A program made the translations under genes and the position numbers. 64,000 nucleotides of DNA, from positions 3,038,001 to 3,102,000 of the forward strand of contig NZ_CP011789.1 in assembly GCF_001636055.1 (NCBI RefSeq), read 5' to 3'. The first letter of the stretch is position 1; every line of letters begins with the position of its first letter. This document shows positions 354 to 9,521 of the stretch, one piece after another. The notes below the pieces were generated by a model, which ran no database searches, had not been told where the DNA came from, and was given only the letters and a program-made list of their open reading frames with translations. The stretch comes from Pseudomonas putida (GTDB taxonomy: Bacteria; Pseudomonadota; Gammaproteobacteria; Pseudomonadales; Pseudomonadaceae).

Positions 354-387
354 CCGTCGATCCGGCGCGCTTGCCAGGCGGCTATAT

Positions 388-403
388 CTGTATGTATAAC
401 CAG
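388..403. promoter_or_regulatory. LexA (SOS) box upstream of the FAN1-helicase operon
   Basis: CTGTATGTATAACCAG fits the gammaproteobacterial LexA consensus CTG-N10-CAG, with the AT-rich TAT..ATA core typical of strong boxes. It ends 28 bp before the GTG start of the nuclease gene, where it would overlap or abut the promoter. The downstream genes encode DNA-repair enzymes, which fits SOS control. Binding is inferred. Confidence 0.7.
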
Positions 404-431
404 TGCTCATGCCAGCCTGCGACGCCATGCC

Positions 432-2084
432 GTGATTGCCCATTCCGTCGAAGATCCGCTCTATTACCTGCATAACTTCCGCCAGGTGCTGAGGTGGGTC
501 GAACACCGATACGCCGATATCCTTGACTCGCACGAGCAAGACTTTCTCCGAGTCTTCAGCGGGCTAGCCCAGCCGACGCAGGCACTGCTGGTGCGTATGG
601 TCATGCGCAAAGGCGAGCTGTTTCGCGGCGACCGGCTCGAGTATGCCGAGATCGGCGACACGGACGCGGCCTTGCAGCCTTTGCTCACCCTGGGATGGGT
701 CTGCCCGAGGCCGGTACTGGGTCTGGAACAGCTGTTCGCCTTGTTGCGCCGGGACGAACTGCTCACCTGTTTTGCCGATCACCTGGCCCATCCTCGCGCG
801 ACCAAGACCCAGTTGCTGGCCACGCTGCGGCCATTGGACCTGCCGGGCAGGCCTCTTTCTGCCTGGTTCGCGCAGGCGCCGGTGCAGATTCTGCAATGGC
901 GTCTGCAACCCCTGTGCGACCGCCTGCGCCTGTTGTTCTTTGGCAATCTTTATCAGGATTGGTCGGAGTTCGTACTGGCCGATCTGGGCGTGCTGCGCTA
1001 CGAGCAGGTGAACTTCAGTGCGGATTCACGCGCCTTGCGCCAGCGCGATGAGGTCGATCTGGCGATGGCCTTGCATGCTTGCGCCGAGCGTCTGGAGCAG
1101 GGAGAGGCGCCGAGTACGTTGCTGCAGGCACTGGAACGGGTCGACAGCACCAACCCCTGGCTGGCCCGGCGTCGTGCACGTCTGCTGTTTGCAATTGGCC
1201 AGCGCTGCGAGCGGCTTGGGCAGTGGGACCTGGCCTTGAGCGTCTACGATGGGCTCGACCACCCCGAGGCGCGCATTCGTCAGGTGCGCGTGCTCGAGCG
1301 CAGCGAGCAGTGGCAGAGGGCGCAGGCACTGGCGTCACACATGGCCCAGACCGTGGCCAATCCGCTTGAGAGCCAGGCGTTGGCGCGCATGCTGCCGCGC
1401 CTTGCACGCAAGCTCGGAGGGCCGCCCCGACGCCGCCCGTCGCCCGCCGCGCAAACGCTCATCGAACTGGAGTTGCCCGTGGAAATGGCCGAACGGGGTG
1501 TGGAGGAGGCGGTGCGCTTGCACTTGGCGCACGCTGACGGCGAGGTCCACTATGTCGAGAATACCTTGTTCAACAGCCTGTTCGGCCTCCTGTGCTGGGA
1601 GGCGATTTTCGCGCCACTGCCCGGCGCTTTCTTTCACCCTTATCAGGCGGCGCCGCAGGATTTGCACGACAGTGATTTCCTGACGCGCCGCGCCGCGCTG
1701 TTCGAAACCTGTCTGGGGCGGCTCGACGATGGCAACTACCGACAGGCGATACGCGAATGTTTTGCCACCAAGCACGGCCTGCAGTCACCGTTCGTGTTCT
1801 GGCAGGTACTGAACGAGGTGCTGCTCGAACAGGCCTTGGCCTGCATTCCTGCCGAGCATCTGAAGCGGTGTTTCCAGCGCCTGCTGCAGGATATTCGCAA
1901 CAACCGCGCAGGCATGCCCGACCTCGTCCAGTTCTGGCCTGCGCAAGGGCGCTACCGCATGATCGAGGTCAAGGGGCCGGGTGATCGCCTGCAGGATAAC
2001 CAGTTGCGCTGGCTGGACTTCTGCCGTGAGCACGGCATGCCGGTCGCGGTATGTCATGTGCGGTGGTGCGAGGTTGCGCCGTGA
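432..2084 (+). CDS. FAN1-type structure-specific nuclease (VRR-NUC domain)
   Basis: A 550-residue protein of about the size of bacterial FAN1, a nuclease that cuts 5' flaps and unhooks DNA interstrand crosslinks. The VRR-NUC domain occupies roughly the last 120 residues. It shows the PD-(D/E)XK signature: Pro496-Asp497 in GMPDLVQFW, then Glu512-Val-Lys514 in MIEVKGPGDRLQDNQ, with the Q..Q helix that follows. The N-terminal part (PLYYLHNFRQVL) matches the FAN1 SAP-like and helical region. The start is a GTG; no ATG lies nearby in frame. The last four bases overlap the start of the helicase gene (GTGA), so the two are translationally coupled. A LexA box lies upstream. Confidence 0.88.
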   Translation: MIAHSVEDPLYYLHNFRQVLRWVEHRYADILDSHEQDFLRVFSGLAQPTQALLVRMVMRKGELFRGDRLEYAEIGDTDAALQPLLTLGWVCPRPVLGLEQLFALLRRDELLTCFADHLAHPRATKTQLLATLRPLDLPGRPLSAWFAQAPVQILQWRLQPLCDRLRLLFFGNLYQDWSEFVLADLGVLRYEQVNFSADSRALRQRDEVDLAMALHACAERLEQGEAPSTLLQALERVDSTNPWLARRRARLLFAIGQRCERLGQWDLALSVYDGLDHPEARIRQVRVLERSEQWQRAQALASHMAQTVANPLESQALARMLPRLARKLGGPPRRRPSPAAQTLIELELPVEMAERGVEEAVRLHLAHADGEVHYVENTLFNSLFGLLCWEAIFAPLPGAFFHPYQAAPQDLHDSDFLTRRAALFETCLGRLDDGNYRQAIRECFATKHGLQSPFVFWQVLNEVLLEQALACIPAEHLKRCFQRLLQDIRNNRAGMPDLVQFWPAQGRYRMIEVKGPGDRLQDNQLRWLDFCREHGMPVAVCHVRWCEVAP

Positions 2085-4342
2085 GTCTGAGTGTGGCGGT
2101 GCGCGCGCTGTGTGAGTTTGCTGCCAAGGTCGGCGACCTGGACTTGCGCTTTACGCCGTCGCCCACCGCCCAGCAGGGCATCGATGGCCATCGGCGGGTC
2201 GTTGCCCGGCGCGGGGCTGGCTACGAGGCGGAGGTGTCGCTGGAGGGCGAGTACCAGGGATTGCGGGTGCGGGGGCGAGCCGATGGCTATGATCCGCTGC
2301 GCAATCGTGTGGAAGAGATCAAGACTCACCGTGGCAGTCTCGACCGTCAGCCGGACAACCATCGGCAATTGCACTGGGCGCAGGCCCGGGTCTACGCCTG
2401 GCTATTGTGCCAGTCGCGTGGGCTGGAGCGGATCGAGGTCACGCTGGTGTACCTGGATGTCGACAGCGACCGGCAGACCTTGTTCAGCGAGCCGCATCAT
2501 GCCGCACAGTTGCAGCAGTTCTTCGAGGCCTTGTGCCAGCGCTTTCTTGGCTGGGCACAGGCCCAGGCCGCACGGCTGCGCCTGCGGGACAACGACCTGC
2601 AGGGGCTGGCGTTCCCTTACCCACAGTTTCGCCAGGGCCAGCGCCAACTGGCAGAGACCCTGTACAAGGCGGTGGCCACCGGTCGCTGCCTGATGGCCCA
2701 GGCCAGCACCGGTATTGGCAAAACGCTCGGCACCCTGTTCCCGCTGCTCAAAGCCATGGCCCCGCAGCAACTGGACAAGCTGTTCTTCCTTACCGCCAAG
2801 ACACCAGGCCGGGCATTGGCGCTCGATGCACTGCGTCAGATCACCGACACCACCGCACAGCCCAGCCTGCGAGCGCTGGAGTTGATCGCCCGGGACAAGG
2901 CCTGCGAATACCCGGGCAGTGCCTGTCATGGCGAGTCCTGCCCGCTGGCCAAGGGTTTCTACGATCGGCTGCCAGCGGCTCGCGAAGCGGCGTCTCAGGT
3001 GGTGTTGCTCGACCGTGTCGGGTTGCGCGAGGTCGCGCTGGCACACCAGGTCTGCCCGTACTACCTGGGGCAGGAGATGGCACGCTGGGTCGATCTGGTG
3101 GTCGCTGACTACAACTATTACTTCGACGCCCATGCGCTGCTGTTCGGCCTCACCCAGCTCAACCAGTGGCGGGTTGCCGTGTTGGTGGACGAGGCGCATA
3201 ACCTGGTGGAGCGCGGGCGCGCCATGTACAGCGCCAGCCTCGACCAGGGGCAACTGCTGGCCTTGCGCAAGACCAAGCCGGCGGGCTTGAGCGGTGCACT
3301 GGAGCGCCTCAATCGCCAGTGGAATGCGCTGTACAAGGCTCAGGTGGCACCGTACCAGGCGAGTGAGCAACTGCCCGAGGCGTTCCTGCGGGCGTTGCAA
3401 CAGTGCATCGGCCTGATTCAGGAGGGCATGGAGCAGGCGCCTGCGCACATCGAGCCGCAGGTTCTGCAGTTCTACTTTCAGGCTCTGCAGTTCAGCCGTG
3501 TGGCCGAGCTGTTCGATGAGCATTTCCTGTTCGATATCAGCCTGCGCAACGGCCCGCGCAGCCGTCGTCTGGCGACGCTGACGCTGCGTAATGTGGTGCC
3601 CGCGCGCCTGCTCGGCCCACGCATGGCTGCGGCGCGCAGTGTCACGCTGTTTTCGGCGACGCTGGGGCCACGACGGTTCTACGCCGACTTGCTGGGCATG
3701 CCGGCGGATACCGCCTGGCTGGATGTGGCCGCGCCATTTCGTGCCGAGCAGCTGCAGGTGCGTATCGTCAGTGAGGTCTCGACCCGTTTTCAGCAGCGCA
3801 AAGCGTCCCTGGCGCCGATCGTCGGGCTGATCGGCGAGCAGTACCAGCGTCAGCCGGGCAACTACCTGGCGTTCTTCAGCAGCTTCGAATACCTGGAGCA
3901 GGTGATGGCCCTGTTTGCCGAACGCTATCCCGAAGTGCCGTACTGGCGGCAGGCGCCGGGCATGGACGAGGCCGCACGCGAGGGATTCCTGGCGCGTTTC
4001 GTGGCGGATGGGCGAGGGATAGGCTTCGCCGTGCTGGGTGGGGCCTTCGCTGAAGGGGTAGACCTGCCAGGCACCCGGCTGATTGGTGCTTTTGTCGCCA
4101 CCCTGGGGTTGCCTCAGGTCAATCCGGTCAACGAACAGTTCAAGCAACGTCTGGCCCGGCAGTTTGGCAGCGGGTTCGACTACGCGTACCTGTACCCTGG
4201 CGTGCGCAAGGTAATCCAGGCGGCCGGTCGGGTCATTCGCGGCGACCAGGACCGTGGCGTGCTGTTCCTGATCGATGAGCGTTTCAATGAGCCGCGAGTA
4301 CAACAGATGTTTCCCATTTGGTGGCAGACCGCTATCAACTGA
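2081..4342 (+). CDS. RecB/Cas4-like nuclease domain fused to an XPD/DinG-family Fe-S helicase
   Basis: From the GTG at 2081 the protein has 753 residues. The N-terminal ~170 residues carry a PD-(D/E)XK nuclease signature: Asp in GRADGYD (about 68), Glu-Ile-Lys in VEEIKTH (79-81), and a QARVYAWLL motif (about 101), as in RecB/Cas4 nucleases. A superfamily 2 helicase of the DEAD_2/XPD/DinG type follows: Walker A ASTGIGKT (about 208-215), four cysteines around 265-320 (CEYPGSAC..C, later VCPYYL) expected to bind a 4Fe-4S cluster, DEAH in VLVDEAHN, and motif VI in QAAGRVIRG near the end. The GTG overlaps the upstream stop as GTGA. An in-frame ATG at 2051 is less likely because the conserved-looking N-terminus begins at [10 protein letters not shown]. 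Probable role: crosslink or replication-fork repair with FAN1. Confidence 0.85.
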
Positions 4343-7043: not shown

Positions 7044-9521
7044 GTGACCGTGTCTCTCGAGCAGCCCCCGGCGCCACCGGACCTGACCCCGCCCGCGCAA
7101 TTACCCTGGTTGCGCCGCCTGGCCGCACGCCTGCTTGGGCGAGGATTGAGCCGTTTGCAGGCGCAGCACCGCGACTCATGGTTCCTCGGCCACGCCACCG
7201 GCCAACGCAGCGGGCACGCCGATGGCCTGCGTGACGGCTACGAACGTGGCCGTGCCGAAGGGTACGAGGCCGGGCGGCAGGTCCTGGTGATCCGCGACAG
7301 CCGCCCTGACAGCGCTGCAGTGCCAGGCCAGGATGACAAGCTGTTCGACGACTGGCGCCTGCCGCTGACAGCAGAGCTGAAGAAACGCTTCAAGGCCGAT
7401 GTCGTCCAGCGCCTGCCTGCCGACGCCCAGCCCAGCGCCGCGCAATGGAAGCTGATCTTCAGCGACACGCCATCTACCTGCGTGGTGGCGGGTGCCGGTG
7501 CCGGCAAGTCCACTTCGCTGGTGCTGCGTATCCTGCTGCTGCGCCACTACCTGGGCTTCGAGCTGGACGCCATGACCGTGGTCACCTTCACGCGTGAGTC
7601 GCGCAAGGACTTCATCAAGCGGCTGGTGCAGGTCTTCGCCATCTGGCAGATCGACCTGCCGCCGGCCCGTGCTCGTGACCTGGTTCGCACCTTCCATTCG
7701 CGCATCCTGCCGCTGGTGCGCAGCCTGCCGGGGTTCTCCCAACTGCGCGCATTCGAGACACTGGGTAACGACCTACCGGCTGGCAGCGAAGCCGAGAGCG
7801 AAGGTAATCCTTTCGACCTGCGCCTGAACGATGCCCAGCGCCACCAGCTCAATCTGTGTTATAGCGACCTGCTGCGTGACAGCCCACGCTTTGTCGAACT
7901 GGTCGCGACGATGCGCCGCGAGGCCCTGCAGCTCAAGCCCCTCGATCCGGATCATCCCGATGTGCAGAAGCGCGTGCAGGTGACTCAACTGGCTGCCCAG
8001 CGCGACGAAGAACTGTGCGACGTGATCGAAGACCTGTGGTTCGCTGCGGGCGCCTGGCCGATCAAGGGCATCGAGCCCTGTCGGGAAACCGTGCAGATCC
8101 GTGGCCAGCGTTTCCATGTGCACGGGCGTCTCGAAGGGCTTGATGCCTGGGTGGTGCTGGGCTTCGATCCGTCGGAAAGCGCCCAGTACCAGCGTGCCAA
8201 CGCCAAGCTGTCGGTGCGTGCCGAGTGGGCTGTAAAGCGCACGTTGTTTCAAGCTTTCTGTGATAAGTCATTGATTTGGCTTGATAACTATACTTCGGCA
8301 AAACGCCTCGCCGCGTCGCTGGCGGGTGATGCGGTGGCGGGGCCTGGGTTCGAGTTCAAGGTCAAGGGCGAACTGGCCCCTGCGCCGTTGCTCGATGCCT
8401 TCGTCGGTGCGGCGAGCTTCATCGAGAACCTGGGGCTCGAGGTGGGGAGCGCCGTGGCTCGCATGAGCTTTGCGCCAGGCGACAGCGATGCGCCGTTTTT
8501 CGAAGCCCTGGCCCTGTACTGGAAGGCATTGGAAGCTCACCTGCTTGGGCAGTCGCCGCCAGTGATGACCTATAACCGCATGTTCGCCCTGTTCGGCGAG
8601 AACAACCCCGAGAACCTGCAACTGTTGCCAGACCCGCTGCTACGCCCGCTGGCGCACTTGATGATTGACGAGTTCCAGGATGTTTCGCCACAGATCGTCA
8701 GCTGGTTGCGCGCTACATTGGGCGAGATCCGCAGGCGTGGCCCAGGCATGCATACCGGGCGCAACGCCGGGCATTCGTCGTTGATGTGCGTGGGTGATGA
8801 CTGGCAGTCGATCTATGGCTGGCGCGGCAGTTCACCGAAGTACTTCATGGAGTTTGGCAAGACCTTCCCATCACCGGCCAATACCCGGGTGATGCTGGTC
8901 GAGAACTACCGGAGCCAGCAGCACATCATCGATGCGGCCGAACACCTTGTGCGCGGTACAACGGCGATCAACGGCAAGAAAGCCAGGGCGTGCGGTGGCG
9001 CCGCCGCGCTGCCACTGTCGCCAGTCAAGGTGTTCGAGCGCGACGAAGCCGCTCTCGGGCAGACCCTGATCGAGCATTACCAACGGGGCGAAACGGTGAT
9101 GATGCTGTTTCGAAAAAGTAGCGATAAGTCACTGATTTCAAATCATATAGATGCGATTGTCAGGGCTGATTCGAGCCTGCCGCCTGAGCAGCGTCGTCTG
9201 CGTCAGCTCACCTATCACAGCGCCAAGGGCCTGCAGGCCGATGCCGTGTTCATGCTTGGTGATTGTCAGTACCTGACCAGTTCACCCTACAAGAACCAGG
9301 TGTATCGCATGGCCGGGTTAGGGCGTACCGGGGATGCACAGCCGTTCGACAGCGCGCAGAAAGACGAAGCGCAGCGCCTGGCCTACGTCGGGGTGACGCG
9401 GGCGATCAGGCACTGCTATTGGCATGTGGACGCTGTCAGCGGCGAGGCGGCGGCGCTGCATCGTGCGTCCAGCCAGGTACAGGGACGGCAAGCCTTCTTC
9501 GAGGACTTGCGCGGCCAGTGA
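7044..9521 (+). CDS. UvrD/Rep superfamily 1 helicase with an N-terminal Gly-x3 repeat
   Basis: An 825-residue SF1A helicase. Motifs in order: Walker A GAGAGKST (150-157), an SF1 Ia-type TVVTFTRES, motif II IDEFQDVSP, motif III GDDWQSIYGWRG, motif IV VENYRS, motif V TYHSAKGLQADAVF and motif VI RLAYVGVTRA. The N-terminal 140 residues are not part of the helicase core. They contain eight glycines spaced exactly four residues apart (49 to 77), a GxxxG helix-packing pattern like that of FliH/YscL. The GTG start at 7044 is chosen because the ATG at 7039 is out of frame. Distinct from UvrD and Rep proper; the middle region with inserted sequence recalls DNA helicase IV-like proteins. Role in repair is inferred. 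Confidence 0.85.
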   Translation: MTVSLEQPPAPPDLTPPAQLPWLRRLAARLLGRGLSRLQAQHRDSWFLGHATGQRSGHADGLRDGYERGRAEGYEAGRQVLVIRDSRPDSAAVPGQDDKLFDDWRLPLTAELKKRFKADVVQRLPADAQPSAAQWKLIFSDTPSTCVVAGAGAGKSTSLVLRILLLRHYLGFELDAMTVVTFTRESRKDFIKRLVQVFAIWQIDLPPARARDLVRTFHSRILPLVRSLPGFSQLRAFETLGNDLPAGSEAESEGNPFDLRLNDAQRHQLNLCYSDLLRDSPRFVELVATMRREALQLKPLDPDHPDVQKRVQVTQLAAQRDEELCDVIEDLWFAAGAWPIKGIEPCRETVQIRGQRFHVHGRLEGLDAWVVLGFDPSESAQYQRANAKLSVRAEWAVKRTLFQAFCDKSLIWLDNYTSAKRLAASLAGDAVAGPGFEFKVKGELAPAPLLDAFVGAASFIENLGLEVGSAVARMSFAPGDSDAPFFEALALYWKALEAHLLGQSPPVMTYNRMFALFGENNPENLQLLPDPLLRPLAHLMIDEFQDVSPQIVSWLRATLGEIRRRGPGMHTGRNAGHSSLMCVGDDWQSIYGWRGSSPKYFMEFGKTFPSPANTRVMLVENYRSQQHIIDAAEHLVRGTTAINGKKARACGGAAALPLSPVKVFERDEAALGQTLIEHYQRGETVMMLFRKSSDKSLISNHIDAIVRADSSLPPEQRRLRQLTYHSAKGLQADAVFMLGDCQYLTSSPYKNQVYRMAGLGRTGDAQPFDSAQKDEAQRLAYVGVTRAIRHCYWHVDAVSGEAAALHRASSQVQGRQAFFEDLRGQ

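Follow-up and report, generated by a model that had tools for sequence, protein, structure and literature searches.

The locus considered here lies near the beginning of a stretch of 64,000 nucleotides from Pseudomonas putida (hereafter the window), in which a gene for a FAN1 nuclease and a gene for a DinG-like helicase follow each other on the forward strand behind a LexA-type box. The box, CTGTATGTATAACCAG, occupies positions 388..403 of the + strand, and 28 bases (404–431) separate it from the GTG start of the FAN1 gene at 432. A LexA box of full CTG-N10-CAG pattern 28 bp before a FAN1-type gene had been proposed from the sequence alone (the original prediction), and this is what the positions read. 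The FAN1 gene (432..2084, + strand) codes for a protein of 550 amino acids in which Pfam recognises the domains VRR_NUC (7.9e-42), FAN1_HTH (9.2e-37) and FANC_SAP (9.1e-15). Residues 6–545 match 4r89 (E-value 2.7e-193) and 5y7g (E-value 3.1e-193), two solved chains of FAN1 homologues that we take to be P. aeruginosa FAN1, and the residues PD (496–497) and EVK (512–514), presumably the PD...EVK active-site motif of FAN1, are present. The three domains and the structure matches confirm the proposed identity of a FAN1-type nuclease. The second gene (2081..4342, + strand) encodes an EndoDinG-type protein, with an N-terminal Cas4/MGME1-like nuclease and an iron–sulfur (Fe–S) helicase of the XPD/DinG type.

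The probable LexA box upstream of FAN1

The 388–403 site has been scored with a matrix built from seven other LexA-type boxes of the same P. putida genome, the FAN1 box being excluded. It reaches 18.0, the highest value of the window, where the runner-up scores 12.6. For comparison, the best site before recA, which is also outside the matrix, scores 18.1, and the recN box 21.6, or 18.3 when left out of the matrix. The bare CTG-N10-CAG pattern occurs 36 times in the 64-kb window versus 32.0 ± 4.7 times in shuffled sequences, 23 of 100 shuffles reaching 36; with its count at chance level, the bare pattern was dropped as evidence for a LexA site. A strict 20-mer consensus of the E. coli type gave no match within 3 mismatches. 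The FAN1 box is significant through the whole 16-mer and its conservation, and not through the bare triplet pattern.

This conservation has been followed in two sets of loci. The named set holds the best 80 of 510 loci, of which 79 carry Pseudomonas in their titles and the last, L058, is titled Pantoea sp. The family set derives from 148 genomes, 119 of which have FAN1 (one as a weak partial match alone). It comprises 120 loci, one from each of 118 genomes and a further copy from each of G138 and G122, and the gene of the window itself is among them as L098; G081 (E-value 7.9e-4) and a weak second match in G093 were left out, and two short leading fragments fall within L216 and L217. The loci share descent and the two sets may overlap in species, which is why the counts cannot be treated as independent observations. 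Between -110 and +6 of FAN1 the exact CTG-N10-CAG pattern is found in 80/80 named loci versus 843 of 15,272 random 110-bp windows of those loci, and in 113/120 family loci versus 1,100 of 21,438 random windows. A narrower upstream stretch gives 111/120, the boxes of L175 and L215 at the gene start being clipped, and 6 extra bases bring the count to 113. With the stricter pattern CTG[TG]A[TC]-N7-CAG the family set gives 110/120, and random windows only 66/21,438. The box was found in at least one genome for 13 of the 14 genera with a fetched FAN1.

Within the named set the site is still better defined. CTGTA-N8-CAG matches once in each of the 80 upstream regions and once in the window, and in these 81 aligned regions 13 of the 16 box positions are invariant, while the flanking columns are mostly mixed. 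In 79 of the 80 named loci no site scores higher than the one before FAN1, and across their 909,061 bp no other site attains 18.0. The family set contains 42 distinct box sequences of exact pattern, which vary mainly in the centre, as is expected of an operator; given the shared descent, this variety is a stronger argument than the locus counts. Control patterns are mostly rare in the family set: other spacings (CTG-Nk-CAG, k from 4 to 20) occur in 1–9 of the 120 loci each, except k=17 (35 loci). Of the inverted triplet pairs, CAG-N10-CTG is found in 10 loci and each of five others in 1–5.

The alignment also points to a possible promoter. A -35-like hexamer, TTGCCA (371..376, + strand; column counts over the 81 regions T71 T73 G71 C57 C67 A50), and a -10-like hexamer, TATAAC (395..400, + strand; T73 A81 T81 A81 A81 C64), stand at a conserved spacing of 18 bp; the second lies within the LexA box, which the pair spans. 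A mechanical promoter scan that required a final T in the -10 element returned no promoter. From its conservation, TTGCCA-18-TATAAC is a candidate for the promoter of the operon. A LexA operator laid over the -10 element is a classic SOS arrangement.

The helicase gene and its proposed coupling to FAN1

The product of the second gene had been described as a nuclease–helicase fusion, a description upheld by motifs, structure comparison and the match to 9kqh, which extends over profile positions 4–749 (E-value 3e-145). In the helicase part, Cys 275, 282, 287 and 325, K214 and the DEAH box at 370–373 are invariant, corresponding to a four-cysteine Fe–S domain and an XPD-type motor. The nuclease fold has been called from sequence, motif and structure comparison: the H, E, D and ExK residues of a PD-(D/E)XK domain are all present, and a Pfam search with the N-terminal 190 residues alone gave nothing above the cut-off. 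An AlphaFold model of the protein has a mean predicted local distance difference test (pLDDT) of 66.4 and a predicted template modelling score (pTM) of 0.43, with pLDDT values of 78–96 (in blocks of ten) over residues 31–160; the large whole-length root-mean-square deviation (19.0 for 9kqh) suggests that domain placement in this model is poor. Against the DinG family model NF008729 the protein scores 73 bits, far below the 598-bit cut-off. Another helicase of the window, a UvrD/Rep-like protein of 825 amino acids (7044–9521), stays below the cut-off of all 15 listed NCBIfam helicase-type models.

Two starts can be read for the EndoDinG-type protein, GTG at 2081 (753 amino acids) and ATG at 2051 (763 amino acids). 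The stop codon of FAN1 (2082–2084) overlaps the GTG as GTGA, and a Shine-Dalgarno-like GAGG, read off the sequence, lies 7 bases before it (2070..2073, + strand). Of 198 loci (the window gene and L098 being one and the same gene), 177 have a start codon with this 4-bp overlap, 2 have a 1-bp overlap and 19 show other arrangements. Moreover, the alignment with 9kqh begins at residue 13 of the longer reading, which is the third residue of the shorter one. Because of this overlap and this alignment start, GTG 2081 appears to be the better start, ATG 2051 being possible but less likely. In 80/80 named and 117/120 family loci the helicase gene lies next to FAN1 on the same strand. The translational coupling originally proposed is plausible, given the 4-bp overlap, with the refinement that it would involve GTG 2081 and not ATG 2051.

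Related boxes in the P. putida genome and outside the family

The 5.81-Mb P. putida genome has been searched for similar sites by pattern and family searches rather than by matrix. Within 3 mismatches of CTGTATATATATACAG there are 17 distinct sites, and none for the reversed control pattern. FAN1 aside, seven of them sit 10–67 bp (counted from mechanical reading-frame starts) before SOS-type or similar genes, namely lexA1, yebG and recN, two SRAP genes (one of them divergent from a umuD-like gene), a radical SAM gene of the PA0069 family and a gene for a 102-amino-acid protein in which Pfam finds no domain. The recN box, CTGTATAAATAACCAG, and the FAN1 box have the right half ATAACCAG in common. 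Of the nine remaining sites, seven (among them 4872817, left out of the fetched loci) may include chance matches. The other two have identified neighbours, a gene for a membrane transporter and a glyoxalase gene, neither of which we know to be linked to SOS. The first of these (PF03547) follows CTGTACGTATATACAG at about 140 bp (L006:1501-1516; G000:C1:1593464). Upstream of the second, CTGTATATTTGTACAG lies inside a perfect 17-bp inverted repeat with a 6-base centre (L008:1490-1530; G000:C1 about 2895386) and may be a LexA site or another element. Elsewhere in this genome (L255 and L247), a LexA-like site with a score of 16.0, CTGGCTAAATTTACAG, stands at -48 of uvrB, and no LexA-like site was found for uvrA in the stretch scored. 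Finally, a second lexA gene (lexA2) stands directly upstream of reading frames judged by eye to be imuA/imuB-like (L002; G000:C1 about 3892583), and the palindrome just before its ATG, GAGTACAAATGTGCTC, differs from the FAN1 box CTGTATGTATAACCAG.

Outside the family, 47 FAN1 loci have been scored (G494, G254, G763, G549, G615 and G770 were left out, and L218/L219 are the same places as L278/L280). CTG-N10-CAG lies between -110 and +20 in 14 of them, nine other spacings (k from 6 to 15) being found in 0–2 each, and in 10 of the 47 the exact pattern has at most 5 mismatches to the consensus. Examples are CTGTATAAACATACAG in f191, CTGTATATTCATACAG in f193 and CTGTATAAAGATACAG in f109. In f141 and f145 the boxes CTGTATAAATATACAC, CTGTATATAAATATAG and CTGTTTTTATAGACAG have one end base changed; the FAN1 proteins concerned (L301, L303–L305, L231–L233) are 22–28% identical, no helicase match lies nearby, and the boxes stand about 40–65 bp upstream. 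A decayed ATGGAT...CAG is seen at the equivalent place in 7 of 8 loci of f3, and upstream of FAN1 in f189, f183, f62, f147 and f156 there is no convincing box. To judge from these sites, SOS control of FAN1 looks near-universal in the Pseudomonas family and patchy elsewhere.

Probable SOS control of the operon and its alternatives

Induction of these genes by DNA damage has been reported in P. aeruginosa, where PA1865 (FAN1) and PA1866 are induced by ultraviolet-C (UV-C) and PA1865 by ciprofloxacin as well, according to the available portions of a 2026 paper (PMC12796719). From the gene order in L103, a near P. aeruginosa relative with the same arrangement and 94.5 and 96.1% identity in two FAN1 segments, PA1866 is likely to be the helicase. 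The conserved box could explain the damage induction of both genes. Taken together, FAN1 and the EndoDinG-type helicase would form a two-gene SOS operon under LexA, a reading to which we give a probability of about 0.8. The SOS control originally proposed is strongly supported by the comparative evidence (80/80 and 113/120 loci) and agrees with the published induction of the orthologues, although it is not proved; dependence on LexA is a prediction.

Several observations weigh against this control or its generality. In the named set some controls are rather frequent (CAG-N10-CTG in 34/80 loci, CTG-N15-CAG in 16/80 and CTG-N17-CAG in 10/80), the others ranging from 0 to 7 and none coming near 80. 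Seven of the 120 family loci are without the exact pattern: five are one base off in a half-site (L159 and L172 with CTG-N10-CAC near -100, L167 and L206 with a TAG end, L173 with a CAT end), and two (L166 and L189, genus g17) have none, their FAN1 standing without the helicase and their site being degenerate (CTG-N8-CAG in L189). L156 is counted as a match by a chance hit alone, its true site probably ending in CAC. Some boxes score low (11.1 for the mandelii/fluorescens type, 7.2 and 9.5 for two of g5 type), and that of L103, CTGTATGCATGAACAG at -34, is weaker than the window's (14.9 versus 18.0). L124 (genus g8) keeps the box with no adjoining helicase, and outside the family most loci do not have a good box. 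In addition, the parts of the 2026 paper at hand group PA1865/PA1866 as not known to be under LexA, PrtR/PrtN or AlpR/AlpA (PMC12796719), and the literature surveyed, as far as available, yielded no LexA-binding or lexA-mutant results for the FAN1 site. Among the titles and abstract openings on FAN1/VRR-NUC with LexA or SOS, PA1865/PA1866, EndoDinG and Pseudomonas LexA regulons, none states LexA control of FAN1, and FAN1 and VRR are absent from the main text of two Vibrio SOS papers. The idea that loss of the helicase predicts loss of the box was dropped, being true in g17 (2/2 loci) and false in g8. As for the second FAN1 copies L216 (G138) and L217 (G122), they have an internal stop codon, the box CTGTACAAGAATACAG still present and a partial helicase downstream.

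That the FAN1 box is a chance match, as the chance-level count of the bare pattern in the window would allow, is refuted for practical purposes by its occurrence at the same place in 80/80 and 113/120 loci versus about 5% of random windows. A different possibility is that the conserved block serves chiefly as a promoter element, the -10 TATAAC, or as an operator for some other regulator, and that damage induces the genes independently of LexA. TATAAC and its flanks are indeed conserved asymmetrically within the named set, and such a view would suit the placing of PA1865/PA1866 outside the known regulons in the accessible text of PMC12796719. Among the 42 distinct sequences (chosen by CTG-N10-CAG), however, the TATAAC letters vary, as in CTGTATAAATCCACAG, whereas the triplet spacing is fixed, and the same type of 16-mer precedes lexA, recN and yebG of P. 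putida; we regard this explanation as unlikely. Control by LexA2, the second LexA-type protein of the genome and a product of the putative lexA2–imuAB operon, seems more improbable still: LexA2 is a poor candidate because the motif before its gene is different from the FAN1 box, and because the box is present in L103, the near relative of P. aeruginosa, a species with a single lexA (PMC5261740, as seen in part).

The alternative with most weight accepts the SOS control and places the main target elsewhere than in interstrand crosslinks (ICLs), for example in UV photoproducts, flaps at stalled forks or invading DNA. The inducers named for PA1865, UV-C and ciprofloxacin, are not crosslinkers (PMC12796719, available parts), so the repair role may be broader, and FAN1 orthologues, that of Pseudomonas included, cut 5′ flaps (PMC4103454, likewise in part). 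The absence of a LexA-like site from the scored stretch of uvrA and the uvrB site of score 16.0 also favour this alternative. In the opposite direction, a role of PA1865 in crosslink unhooking is given in the 2026 paper, in the portions available, with reference to Jin 2018 and Gwon 2014 (PMC12796719). We see a target other than crosslinks as quite possible, if short of even odds. The site itself gives no ground for the original step from SOS induction to crosslink repair; a crosslink role is plausible, resting on FAN1 biochemistry and not on the LexA box.

Under the preferred reading of a LexA-controlled operon, the following sequence of events can be proposed. In undamaged cells LexA, the lexA1 product, would bind 388–403 and mask the -10 element of the putative promoter. 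Upon DNA damage, RecA would load on single-stranded DNA and LexA would cleave itself, and FAN1 and the EndoDinG-type helicase would then be produced jointly by translational coupling, if this operates in vivo. The helicase would open the damaged DNA or stalled fork in the 5′–3′ direction and so expose a 5′ flap or ICL strand for FAN1 to cut, and the strand thus displaced would be trimmed or nicked by the Cas4-like domain. The sequences themselves show the site and its conservation, the identities of the genes with their intact motifs, and the overlap, and damage induction has been published for the P. aeruginosa orthologue; LexA binding, the promoter, coupling in vivo, the joint action of the two proteins and crosslinks as the main substrate are the parts of this scheme that we infer.

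Biological meaning and comparison with known systems

If the operon is SOS-controlled, FAN1, whose human relative is a crosslink-repair nuclease, and its barely characterised nuclease–helicase partner join the SOS regulon in nearly all of a bacterial family. A further step, which we hold to be rather doubtful, is that both proteins form one SOS-inducible excision machine, in which an XPD/FANCJ-like motor with a Cas4-type nuclease of its own is produced in step with FAN1 as the 5′-flap or unhooking nuclease. Such a machine would parallel, in bacteria, the way eukaryotes pair Fe–S helicases with FAN1, and Pseudomonas would have a route of unhooking that can be induced. E. coli has, to our knowledge, no FAN1 and leaves unhooking to UvrAB, which is SOS-induced. 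The LexA box would also offer a direct and testable reason why damage induces PA1865/PA1866, a point that the 2026 paper, in its available parts, leaves open (PMC12796719), and the EndoDinG-type helicase a likely functional partner for bacterial FAN1, none being named in the portions of the literature consulted. What appears to be new is the predicted membership of the FAN1 operon in the LexA regulon; the damage induction of PA1865/PA1866 and the EndoDinG type have already been published.

Several known systems resemble this one in part. In E. coli, dinG codes for an XPD-like Fe–S helicase under LexA, and so resembles the helicase of the window in its type and in the LexA control predicted for the latter; it differs in that E. 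coli DinG has, as far as we know, neither an N-terminal nuclease nor a FAN1 partner. With the known Pseudomonas LexA regulon (lexA, recA, recN, yebG and PA0069-like genes) the FAN1 operon shares the type of 16-bp operator, its score being equal to that of the recA site, although PA1865/PA1866 are set apart from that regulon in the available text of the 2026 paper (PMC12796719). P. aeruginosa FAN1 (PA1865) is a near-full-length homologue with the same three domains, and the difference is that, in the same partly available source, it is induced by UV-C and ciprofloxacin but not listed as LexA-regulated (PMC12796719), the box of its near relative L103 being also the weaker one. Finally, the helicase shares with the EndoDinG subgroup of DinG-like helicases (PMC11981726, available in part) and with 9kqh, the DinG of Finegoldia magna, the N-terminal PD-(D/E)XK domain, the four-cysteine Fe–S domain and the XPD-type motor. 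The EndoDinG review, as available, cites unpublished endonuclease data for a Bdellovibrio protein, and FAN1 and VRR are unmentioned in its main text (PMC11981726), whereas here the EndoDinG-type protein is the conserved neighbour of FAN1, with both genes under what is predicted to be one LexA box.

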